Shown one piece after another: positions 28,779 through 31,645 of a stretch of DNA of 33,230 nt; the first letter of the stretch is position 1; each line of letters starts with the position of its first letter. The notes below the pieces were generated by a model. The model had not been told where the DNA came from and ran no database searches. It saw only the letters and a program-made list of their open reading frames with translations. Source of the stretch: Nitrospirota bacterium (GTDB lineage Bacteria; Nitrospirota; Leptospirillia; Leptospirillales; Leptospirillaceae); assembly GCA_027314645.1 (NCBI GenBank), contig DAHVAL010000004.1, positions 1-33,230 of the forward strand. Direction: 5' to 3'. The position numbers and the translations under genes were made by a program.

Positions 28779-30131
28779 TCAATACCCTTTCCGGGCTCCG
28801 ATTTCCCTGTCAAGGCTGTCCCGAATCATTGAAAGGCGGAAGCGATCCGCGATCAGCCTCTCCCGGCTCGTTAAAACCTCCGTCTCCGCATCCACCGCGG
28901 TCACTCCGTCCACGAGGCCGCGGGAAAAACGCCGCTCCACCAATCGCTGATTGACAAGGGCATTGTCGTAACGGGCCTGGTCAAGCGACAGTGTCTGCAT
29001 CTGCGTTTCAAGGTCGTCGTAAAGCTTCCTCACATTCCGGATGATCTGGATCCGGACGAGGCGCGTTTTTTCAGACTCCCGCAACGCCTCCATCCGTGCC
29101 TTCTCGGTATCGTGCATGATCGCCCCGCCAACGAAAATGGGGACAGTAAATCCCACTCCGCTCTGAAAGGTCGGCAGGAACAGGCCGGCTCCGGGAGGTG
29201 CCCCCGATATCGTGGGCGGCACGCCCCAGAGGATGTACCCCTGGGCAAAAAGGGAGAAGTGGGGGTAATTCTGTGACCGGACCACCTCAACCCTCGCCAC
29301 TTTTTCACGATCCCGGGCCTGCTCCGAAAGAAGAAGAGGACGGTGGTGCAGGGAATAGTCGATCAGACGGTCGAGCGGCCAATCGGGGGCCAATGTTTGA
29401 GGGGACCCGTGCGTGCGGTAGGGGACCATCCGTTCCCCTCCCATGGCATAGGCAAGATCGGCCTGAGCCTTTTGGAGGGCATTGTGTTCACGGACCCGTT
29501 CGAGCCGCGTCTTCTCAAGCAGAAGCCGGCTCATCGTGACATCGGTGATCACGCCGAGCCCCCGGGCCAATCGCTCCGCAGCGCGCCGGTAGTGAAGAGC
29601 GGCATCCTCCTCGTTCTTCTTCGCCGCACGGTAGAGGTGTTCGAACATCGCAAGTTGATCATACGCCACATTTGCGTGATAGACGACCGTGAGACGGGCC
29701 TCATCGAGGTCTTCCTGCCGGCTTTCGAGCAGGGAACGCTCCGCTTTCACCCGGGCATGGCGGAGCCCAAAGGTTGTAATATCCTGCGTCAACGTCGGGT
29801 TCAACAGTTCCGGCGCAATCGGCTCAAAGTCCGGAAAAACTCCCCCGATAAAGGCCGTATTGAGGAACAGCTGATCGATGGAGAGCGTGAGGTGGGGATA
29901 ATAGTCGGATCGGGCCGTCCCGACTTGTTCTTTCTGCGAACGGCTCTCTGCCGCGGCGATGGAGACGAGGGGATGGGAGGAAAGCGCGGCTTGGATCACC
30001 GCCGTTCGATCGATCAGAACTCCTTCTTGGCCGCGGGCGGTTTGGACTCCCCCCACCGACGACACGACAAGGAGACTCAGCAGAAGAGGGATTCCTCCCC
30101 GCCCCGACCGGCCCTCACCCCTTCCTGACAA
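28779..30131 (-). CDS. tolC: TolC-family outer-membrane efflux protein
   Basis: 450 residues. After a signal peptide (IPLLLSLLVVSSVGGVQTARG) two related OEP repeats follow. Each has long coiled helices and a beta segment, for example HARVKAERSLLESRQEDLDEARLTVVYHANVAYDQL and FSRGLVDGVTAVDAETEVLTSRERLIADRFRLS. FVGGAIMHDTEKARMEAL is the usual 'FxGG' segment. TolC trimers form the outer-membrane channel of tripartite exporters. The start is TTG at 30131, with GAGG 6 bases upstream, overlapping the MFP gene by 17 bases. It therefore shares the riboswitch-bearing leader of that gene. No inner-membrane transporter gene is adjacent. Confidence 0.92.
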   Translation of the reverse strand: MSGRGEGRSGRGGIPLLLSLLVVSSVGGVQTARGQEGVLIDRTAVIQAALSSHPLVSIAAAESRSQKEQVGTARSDYYPHLTLSIDQLFLNTAFIGGVFPDFEPIAPELLNPTLTQDITTFGLRHARVKAERSLLESRQEDLDEARLTVVYHANVAYDQLAMFEHLYRAAKKNEEDAALHYRRAAERLARGLGVITDVTMSRLLLEKTRLERVREHNALQKAQADLAYAMGGERMVPYRTHGSPQTLAPDWPLDRLIDYSLHHRPLLLSEQARDREKVARVEVVRSQNYPHFSLFAQGYILWGVPPTISGAPPGAGLFLPTFQSGVGFTVPIFVGGAIMHDTEKARMEALRESEKTRLVRIQIIRNVRKLYDDLETQMQTLSLDQARYDNALVNQRLVERRFSRGLVDGVTAVDAETEVLTSRERLIADRFRLSMIRDSLDREIGARKGY

Positions 30132-31062
30132 TGGCCACCTCTGCGGACATTCCGGGGAAGATCGCCTGACCCTTCAAATCATCGAAGACGATCCGGACCG
30201 GGATCCTTTGGACCACCTTCACGAAGGTTCCGGCCGCATTCTGGGTCGGGAGAAGGGAGAAGGCCTGGCTCGCCGCCGGAATGAACTCCAGGACGTGCCC
30301 CGTAAACCGGAGGTGAGGAAAGGCGTCAATCCGAATGAAGACCTTTTGCCCGGGATGCACCTTCCAAATCTGCGTTTCTCTCAGGAAGGCGTCGAGCCAC
30401 ACGTTGTTCAGGTCGCGGGAATCGATGATGCTGACCAAGGGCTGATTCGGACGAACGGTTTCCCCGAGATTGGCGAGCCGCTGTGCCACCTGACCGGCAA
30501 TGGAGGCGAACACCGTCCGGTTCCGGGGATGGACCTCCGACACCTCCAGGGACTGCCGGTCGGCGCGAATCAGACGCTGGATCTCCCGAAGCTGGGCTTC
30601 CATTTTTTTGTAGTTCGTTTCCAGGTCTTCCAGCCTCTGCTCGGAAATAAACCGATTTTTGAGAAGATCCTTTCCGCGCCGGAAATGGTCTCCGGCATCT
30701 CGGACCTCATGCTCGATGCGGACCTTGGTGGCCAAGTCGCGCTCGAGCCTCTGGTAGGGGGAGAGATTCTTTTGGGTATTGTGGCGGCGGTTGTATCGGT
30801 CCCCCGTGGTGTCGATCGTCGCAATGACCTCTCCGAATCGGACCGGATCGCCTTCGTTGACATTGAGCGCAAGGAGGCGTCCTCCGACGGGGGAAGCAAT
30901 CAGGGTGATCTTGCCTTGGACATAGCAATCCACGGACCGGACAAATCGTTCCTGATCGAGGACGAAGACCCCCCCCCATATCAGGGTCCCGGCGAGGCCG
31001 GCCAAAGGGAGCAGGATCCTCCAGTTTCGCAGCGTCAGAGATTTTTGGGTATCCTCGGGCAT
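30115..31062 (-). CDS. EmrA/HlyD-type membrane fusion protein
   Basis: 315 residues from the ATG at 31062 (GGAGG 7 bases upstream); an in-frame TTG at 31119 is less likely. The N-terminal transmembrane helix (LLPLAGLAGTLIWGGVFVL) is followed by a lipoyl half-motif (ASPVGGRLLALNVNEGDPVRFGEVIATID). A coiled hairpin covers about 105-185, then the second lipoyl half (VFASIAGQVAQRLANLGETVRPNQPLVSI) and beta-barrel. The AFSLLPTQNAAGTFVKVVQRIPVRI segment is characteristic of EmrA-like adaptors. These normally join a DHA2 major-facilitator pump to TolC; here only TolC is present. Upstream lies a fluoride riboswitch. Confidence 0.92.
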   Translation of the reverse strand: MPEDTQKSLTLRNWRILLPLAGLAGTLIWGGVFVLDQERFVRSVDCYVQGKITLIASPVGGRLLALNVNEGDPVRFGEVIATIDTTGDRYNRRHNTQKNLSPYQRLERDLATKVRIEHEVRDAGDHFRRGKDLLKNRFISEQRLEDLETNYKKMEAQLREIQRLIRADRQSLEVSEVHPRNRTVFASIAGQVAQRLANLGETVRPNQPLVSIIDSRDLNNVWLDAFLRETQIWKVHPGQKVFIRIDAFPHLRFTGHVLEFIPAASQAFSLLPTQNAAGTFVKVVQRIPVRIVFDDLKGQAIFPGMSAEVAIVRKG

Positions 31063-31209
31063 CAGACGGCCTCCGATGGAATGCGTCCATACAGTCTTCC
31101 GGCACAAATGAAGCGTCAACTGGAAGATTCAAAGGAATTTGAGGATAAAAAGCAAGCTGTATGGGAGGAATCGAAAGGTCAGGAGGGAGATCAAGGATTC
31201 GCGGCTTAT

Positions 31210-31261
31210 AAAAGGGGCCGACTCTCCCACCACACGCATGCCTTCACCCATGGTAGGAGTC
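31210..31261 (-). terminator. Expression-platform terminator of the fluoride riboswitch
   Basis: GACTCCTACC (31261-31252, the 3' side of the aptamer) can pair with GGTGG-GA-GAGTC (31231-31220): 10 pairs with one G-T and a 2-base bulge. A loop of about 20 bases closes it. CCCC then TTTT (31213-31210) follow 2 bases later. This is the same design as the Bacillus cereus crcB switch: the terminator stem steals the aptamer pseudoknot strand, so ligand binding should let transcription proceed. The U-run is short (4). Confidence 0.65.
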
Positions 31262-31305
31262 ATCACCCTGCGCGAAAGCAGGGACAGGCGAACCCCATCG
31301 CCGTT
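31249..31305 (-). ncRNA. Fluoride riboswitch aptamer (crcB motif)
   Basis: The minus strand reads GGCGATGGGGTTCGCC (31302-31287), a short linker, the stem CCCTGC/GCAGGG (31283-31266), then TGATGACTCCTACC (31265-31252). This matches the known crcB aptamer element by element: first hairpin GGCGAUG-loop-CGCC, variable second stem, and terminal AUGACUCCUACC. The required pseudoknot forms between loop GGGGU and ACUCC (one G-U pair). The loop bases and the terminal strand are nearly identical to the B. cereus aptamer. It lies about 190 bases upstream of the membrane fusion protein ATG on the same strand, with no gene between. Confidence 0.9.
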
Positions 31306-31333
31306 TATTCAGTAGCGTGCTGATCCTACCATG
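31249..31333 (-). repeat. 10-bp inverted repeat enclosing the aptamer
   Basis: CATGGTAGGA occurs at 31249-31258 and its exact reverse complement at 31324-31333. In the RNA the upstream arm could pair with UCCUACCAUG at the aptamer 3' end, closing a four-way structure with the two aptamer stems and a third hairpin (31309-31323). It overlaps the pseudoknot by 3 bases and the terminator arm by 7, so it could act as an antiterminator or third state. Confidence 0.55.
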
Positions 31334-31425
31334 ATGTTTTTCAAAAATCCAGCCCTCGAATAACGGGCCTTCCCCCTCCCGACCCGCGGTCTTCATCGAC
31401 CCGTCATGCCGGACGTGTACGCCTG

Positions 31426-31483: not shown

Positions 31484-31645
31484 ATGGACACCATCATCCC
31501 ACTGTTGTTCGGCTTGTTGAGCATATTCGGTTTTTTGGTCACCTCGGCGCTTCTTTATCTGATCGTAAAACCTGCGCCTGAGAGAAAATGGTCCCCCACA
31601 CAAAAATCCCCTCACCTTCCGGCGAGAAAGCTCCTCGCGCCGTAA
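31484..31645 (+). CDS. Small single-helix membrane protein, 53 residues
   Basis: The ATG at 31484 has an ideal ribosome site, AAAGGAGG with 7-base spacing, the strongest in the window. This supports a real gene despite its size. The product starts MDTIIPLLFGLLSIFGFLV, continues with a hydrophobic helix to about residue 27 (VTSALLYLIV), and ends in a basic, Pro-rich tail (PHLPARKLLAP). The topology is probably N-out or N-periplasmic with a cytoplasmic basic tail. I do not recognise a family. It reads opposite to its neighbours and its 3' end overlaps the convergent coaX by 34 bases. Confidence 0.65.
   Translation: MDTIIPLLFGLLSIFGFLVTSALLYLIVKPAPERKWSPTQKSPHLPARKLLAP

Follow-up and report, generated by a model that had tools for sequence, protein, structure and literature searches.

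Fluoride riboswitches in the Leptospirillaceae stand in front of genes for an EmrAB-TolC-type efflux pump. Whereas the pump type and the riboswitch are both already known, the fluoride-riboswitch regulon of pump genes is real, systematic and new, and some of the pump parts are specific to the lineage. We consider it probable that a fluoride-ON riboswitch controls this tripartite module, namely the adaptor and outer-membrane channel in the window (the whole 33,230-nucleotide stretch of Nitrospirota DNA analyzed here) and additionally the MFS transporter in relatives, and that the pump relieves fluoride stress.

A fluoride aptamer upstream of an EmrA-type adaptor gene and tolC

Using cmscan against Rfam model RF01734 (gathering score 34), we detected one fluoride aptamer in the window genome (2.04 Mb, 95% complete). 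It matches the model over its full length (positions 1-64 of 64) at 31311-31247 on the minus strand, with 39.9 bits and an E value of 7.4e-8. A preliminary description of this DNA, made by reading the letters, had recognized a crcB-type aptamer at 31249-31305 (minus strand) upstream of an EmrA-like adaptor gene and an overlapping tolC gene, and had proposed a covariance-model search as a check. The earlier interval is the core of the Rfam match, whose score exceeds the gathering score, and the gene order, on the same strand, is as described (Table 1). A chance match is ruled out by the E value and because the aptamer stands upstream of the orthologous adaptor in many genomes, 15 besides that of the window.

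Table 1. Coordinates of the riboswitch and pump features in the window
Feature	Position	Strand	Evidence
Candidate promoter: TGGATT 31351-31346, spacer 17 nt, TAGGAT 31328-31323, TG before second hexamer	31323..31351	-	Sequence reading
Fluoride riboswitch aptamer, P1-P3 linker 3 nt	31247..31311	-	RF01734 39.9 bits; P1, pseudoknot and core kept in 20/20
Predicted anti-pseudoknot hairpin: pseudoknot 3' strand CUCCUACCAUG pairs with downstream segment	31220..31265	-	Minimum-free-energy fold, z -2.37
EmrA-type periplasmic adaptor (MFP), 315 aa	30115..31062	-	TIGR00998, HlyD_3, HlyD_D23; structures; alignment
TolC-type outer-membrane channel, overlaps end of adaptor gene	28779..30131	-	PF02321 133 bits; TIGR01844 E 5e-32 (below cut-off)

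Promoter-like elements similar to the tentative candidate in the window, which a generic sigma-70 scan did not call, also lie just 5' of the aptamer in same-genus leaders. The adaptor gene most likely starts at the ATG at 31062, preceded by the Shine-Dalgarno sequence GGAGG (31074-31070) and separated from the aptamer by 184 nt, so that its product would have 315 residues rather than the 334 of an open reading frame beginning with TTG. The adaptor matched TIGR00998 with an E value of 2.4e-43 (below the curated cut-off) and PF13437 with 60 bits (above the cut-off). Its best subfamily match is EmrA/EmrK, and the nearest solved structures are those of EmrA from Aquifex and E. coli; the channel encoded together with it carries PF02321. 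The adaptor also retains the segment FIPAASQAFSLLPTQNAAGTFVKVVQRIPVRI, which we interpret as corresponding to a loop conserved in the beta-barrel of EmrA homologues. Given that this loop is part of the EmrB docking region (PMC13139468), its retention speaks for a partner of the EmrB type. In the window, the adaptor-TolC pair has no adjoining MFS gene; the neighbors are genes for biotin ligase and type III pantothenate kinase upstream and for malate dehydrogenase and Lpt proteins downstream.

Divergent from the riboswitch lies a small open reading frame (31484-31645, plus strand; MDTIIPLLFGLLSIFGFLVTSALLYLIVKPAP...) with a strong Shine-Dalgarno sequence and no Pfam match. Over the first ~32 residues, its product shares 67-91% identity with sequences at the same place in other same-genus loci, and it probably encodes an undescribed one-helix membrane protein.

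Aptamer-led pump genes across the family

Our family set comprised 21 Leptospirillaceae genomes, mostly incomplete MAGs, with G015 and G017 99% complete. Twenty aptamers scored above threshold, spread over 17 genomes, and all 20 precede pump genes: an adaptor gene in 13 cases and an EmrB-like MFS gene in seven. The count of 13 includes G007, in which the contig ends after the aptamer and the adaptor, presumably the next gene, begins another contig. Viewed from the adaptor, an aptamer lies upstream of the orthologous gene in 15 other genomes, directly in 12 (G007 again presumed) and with the MFS gene between in three. The survey of homologous loci that the preliminary description had recommended therefore reveals the same leader and a conserved association of the aptamer with the adaptor-TolC pair, which in relatives extends to the inner-membrane EmrB-like MFS.

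The arrangement of these parts differs among genomes. Each of the seven MFS-type loci consists of the aptamer, a small open reading frame and then the EmrB-like MFS gene. In three Leptospirillum genomes (G015, G019 and G020), a single aptamer heads a small two-helix reading frame, the MFS gene, the adaptor gene and tolC, the order in G020 being shown by the MFS and adaptor positions. G009, G010 and G016 carry two aptamers each, one per pump half. The surroundings of the locus vary between genera, while the aptamer and the pump genes remain together. The four aptamer-less genomes (G002, G005, G008 and G018), three of which are incomplete, are also without the window-type adaptor. The exception is G017, in which a partial adaptor gene at a contig end has no upstream aptamer, but the MFS gene has one. 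A contig scan with narrow peptide patterns returned matches from Leptospirillaceae only, the narrowness of the patterns saying nothing about wider distribution, and a plasmid search gave matches only about 23-30% identical.

The small two-helix protein (66-85 aa; L047:7375-7626, plus strand, with equivalents in L028, L030, L031, L039, L041 and L049) has two stretches predicted to be hydrophobic, carries the motif ..E...(D/Q/N)WP... in its C-terminal part, and is always encoded between aptamer and MFS gene. It has no above-threshold Pfam match and is possibly an accessory pump subunit.

Paralogues and other Nitrospirota served as controls. At all 67 aptamer loci sampled from other Nitrospirota families, relatives of the adaptor, TolC or MFS were absent from the downstream stretch checked (1.5 to 3.6 kb, shorter in a few). 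By eye, many of these aptamers lead Na+/H+-antiporter-like genes, and others lead genes for CrcB, a dynamin-like GTPase or a NuoH-like subunit. Within the family, there was no aptamer at the canonical EmrA (~40% identical) or EmrB (~28%) paralogues, nor at the orphan clade-B MFS (~42% identical), where a second, divergent aptamer was sought and none appeared up to E 1 at L095 and three other loci. In the tree, the aptamer-led MFS proteins form one clade (support 99/97) that neighbors clade B, and among 296 Nitrospirota genomes, including the 21 of the family, they had no match at E <= 1e-50 outside the family.

These other Nitrospirota provided three further observations. G097 (six), G245 and G199 carry several fluoride aptamers per genome, which suggests large fluoride regulons. 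In several families, aptamers precede genes for the dynamin-like GTPase (...VVVGQFKRGKTSLINALLG...; L022, L123, L126, L132, L136, L145 and L148, by eye), which to our knowledge is not a recognized fluoride riboswitch target. In one other family, aptamers lead a conserved membrane protein of ~493-568 aa (...LGIIASYAVAIGLFLLCVPIAVQELVSTFSFA...; L019, L020, L021, L023, L024, L139, L146, L150, L153, L156 and L160).

Known fluoride exporters and the possible cargo of the pump

The usual membrane proteins under fluoride riboswitches are Fluc/CrcB and CLC-F, which are unrelated to the parts of an EmrAB-TolC-type pump and reside in the inner membrane only. CrcB (PF02537) was found neither near the aptamer nor elsewhere in the window genome, whereas the same search detected it in 10 of 14 control genomes. 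It is missing from 20 of the 21 family genomes. The sole family CrcB (L082, G019:C99:21621-21956) occurs in a genome that also has an aptamer-led pump, and may reflect true retention, transfer or contamination. Each family genome has one CLC. The reading of that of the window genome as a CLC-F is not supported: its best matches are Cl-/H+ exchangers (84 bits, versus 60 bits for the CLC-F structure), its family-level matches are ClcB/ClcA, and it looks like a chloride exchanger. No CLC-F candidate was seen. The incompleteness of most of the MAGs limits these absences, although completeness reaches 99% in G015 and G017.

HF has a pKa of 3.2, and in a cytosol near pH 6.5, F- would be about 2000 times as abundant as HF. 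At low pH, HF enters cells and dissociates inside (PMC12831704). Fluc channels require a positive-outside membrane potential (PMC11139923) and leptospirilli are predicted to have an inside-positive one (PMC7231039). A proton-coupled MFS antiporter could still exploit the large pH gradient, and cells gain resistance to CCCP, a weak acid, from EmrAB-TolC (PMC13139468). On these grounds, a pump that fluoride induces and protons drive is a coherent idea. We suggest that these energetics may explain the use of a different exporter more economically than the crossing of the outer membrane, in which the preliminary description had seen the point of a TolC-dependent system. That argument is weak: small, neutral HF would re-enter from the medium as it would from the periplasm, and export beyond the outer membrane alone is therefore no cure for re-entry.

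What the pump carries is less certain than its regulation. The likeliest cargo, although short of probable, is a fluoride species, with fluoride itself plausible and a metal-fluoride complex a further candidate. More tentatively still, and on balance doubtfully, the aptamer-led MFS, adaptor and TolC might constitute a further, unrelated class of fluoride exporter, proton-coupled and replacing Fluc/CrcB in extreme acidophiles, whose inverted membrane potential would render a passive F- channel useless. A substantial possibility, although again not one we would call probable, is that the module is fluoride-induced, as in our preferred explanation, and exports something else, either for pH balance during HF flooding or to remove secondary toxicants such as lipophilic weak acids, uncoupler-like compounds, metal complexes or damaged metabolites. 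Known fluoride riboswitches also control non-exporters, including Na+/H+ antiporters, enolase and pyrophosphatase (PMC11139923), the aptamers elsewhere in Nitrospirota also lead antiporter-like genes, and the EmrAB-TolC pump of E. coli, whose exports include drugs and the protonophore CCCP, is not known to move F- (PMC13139468). However, with CrcB nearly absent and no CLC-F candidate in view, another fluoride exporter would be required, and in this family no aptamer leads anything but pump genes.

A candidate MFS partner

The family pump resembles EmrAB-TolC (MFS, DHA2 type) in the conserved EmrA loop, in the retention of EmrB residues D29 and R109 in its MFS and, in Leptospirillum, in the operon order MFS-adaptor-TolC. 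It differs in its riboswitch control, in forming clades separate from the resident canonical EmrAB, in the additional two-helix protein and at position 112, which is E in all seven aptamer-led MFS proteins, whereas the remaining 22 and E. coli EmrB have Q there. A further difference concerns the genus of the window, where any MFS partner lies apart from the adaptor-TolC pair. The EmrB-type MFS gene that is in the operon in the three Leptospirillum genomes is missing from the window locus, and the window genome has no aptamer-led MFS; an orphan clade-B MFS is encoded elsewhere (G000:C7:16455-17858). Because no other EmrB-type MFS found in the window genome lacks an adaptor of its own, our best guess is that the window adaptor and TolC work with this orphan in trans. 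The presence of a clade-B MFS in G002, a genome without the window-type adaptor, counts against the partnership.

Alternatively, the switched adaptor and TolC could feed the shared canonical EmrB of the window genome (G000:C22) and so raise general efflux under fluoride. The lack of an adjoining MFS gene fits this idea, as does the TolC:EmrA:EmrB stoichiometry of 3:6:1 (PMC13139468), by which adaptor and channel could be limiting. Nevertheless, the canonical EmrB has its own EmrA next to it and the orphan clade-B MFS is closer to the fluoride-switched MFS clade, and we regard the shared arrangement as unlikely.

Aptamer structure and the predicted expression platform

The family aptamers have the sequence, P1, pseudoknot, core and 5' leader position of the fluoride (crcB) riboswitch. 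P1 is paired in all 20, with G-C to A-U and C-G to U-A changes at two positions. The pseudoknot is likewise paired throughout, with three pair types at position 3, and AUGG and UGAUGA are invariably present. The residues around what we take to be the Mg2+/F- site of the aptamer crystal structure are also kept. Two sub-threshold matches (G004:C25 and G012:C65, 22 bits) lack the canonical core and were rejected. Unlike known fluoride riboswitches, the Leptospirillaceae aptamers appear to control adaptor, TolC and EmrB-like MFS genes and not CrcB, CLC-F, antiporters or fluoride-inhibited enzymes. Among leaders of the adaptor type in the genus of the window, moreover, the linker between P1 and P3 is shortened to 3-4 nt (usually 5-7) and the usual AACC is missing. 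This divergence, together with family scores of 35-45 bits versus up to 64 elsewhere in the phylum, could mean that the window aptamer binds another ligand or is a functionless relic, which is very improbable given that core, P1 and pseudoknot are unchanged among loci whose adaptors share just 66-81% of residues, a sign of selection, and that in relatives the same genes are under aptamers with linkers of ordinary length.

Structures that compete with the pseudoknot have been reported for many crcB RNAs (PMC2864571), and the Leptospirillaceae leaders likewise have one downstream. The predicted hairpin and the pseudoknot are mutually exclusive in the window and in nearly all related leaders. The pairing in the window was equalled by 3 of 200 shuffles, within the range of 0-3 observed for the MFS-type leaders, the window and the adaptor leader of G016. 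In the remaining same-genus leaders, 7-29 of 200 shuffles did as well; in G014 it was 71 of 200, which is no better than chance.

The blocking step may differ between leader types. In 7/7 MFS-type leaders, the segment competing for the pseudoknot contains the Shine-Dalgarno sequence of the small open reading frame (GTAGGGGGAG, GTAGGAGG, GGGAGGAG and similar), whose stop codon overlaps the MFS start. Such sequestration, a difference from the RF01734 riboswitch as described, suggests translational control of the MFS-type leaders. In the adaptor-type leaders, that of the window included, the start codon is distant from the hairpin, and the blocking step is perhaps termination. Intrinsic termination was considered and rejected for these leaders as a group: the short U run 3' of the hairpin in the window is missing in most relatives. 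With respect to Rho, the window leader is C-rich and G-poor to a degree equalled by 6 of 552 window segments; its relatives are less so.

Proposed mechanism and implications

In the mechanism that we favor, a rise in cytosolic fluoride would close the aptamer pseudoknot (GGGGU with ACUCC) and thereby withdraw its 3' strand from the competing hairpin that blocks expression, by hiding the Shine-Dalgarno sequence in MFS-type leaders and perhaps by termination in adaptor-type leaders. Fluoride binding and the direction of switching are inferred. Once induced, the pump, powered by proton flow along the large pH gradient of these acidophiles, would then relieve fluoride stress where the potential-driven Fluc/CrcB channel was lost.

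A 2024 review attributes bacterial fluoride resistance to two exporter families, Fluc and CLC-F, and a search of its text for MFS, TolC or the outer membrane came up empty (PMC11139923). Reviews name other fluoride riboswitch targets. Our literature search, with subscription papers mostly outside its scope and an earlier mention therefore possible, found among the papers listed no report pairing a fluoride riboswitch with MFS or EmrA/EmrB/HlyD/TolC genes, and with the same limited coverage no paper joining fluoride, riboswitch and Leptospirillum.

In the Leptospirillaceae, which live at the very low pH that makes HF uptake strongest, Fluc has been nearly lost and a two-membrane pump placed under a fluoride sensor. 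There is a credible chance that the module is a new fluoride exporter. In bioleaching, fluoride is known to poison Leptospirillum (PMC12831704), which gives the system practical relevance. It also makes testable how a cell copes with fluoride if its membrane potential is unable to drive a channel, and for extreme acidophilic iron oxidizers, our findings point to an undescribed way of handling fluoride at very low pH.
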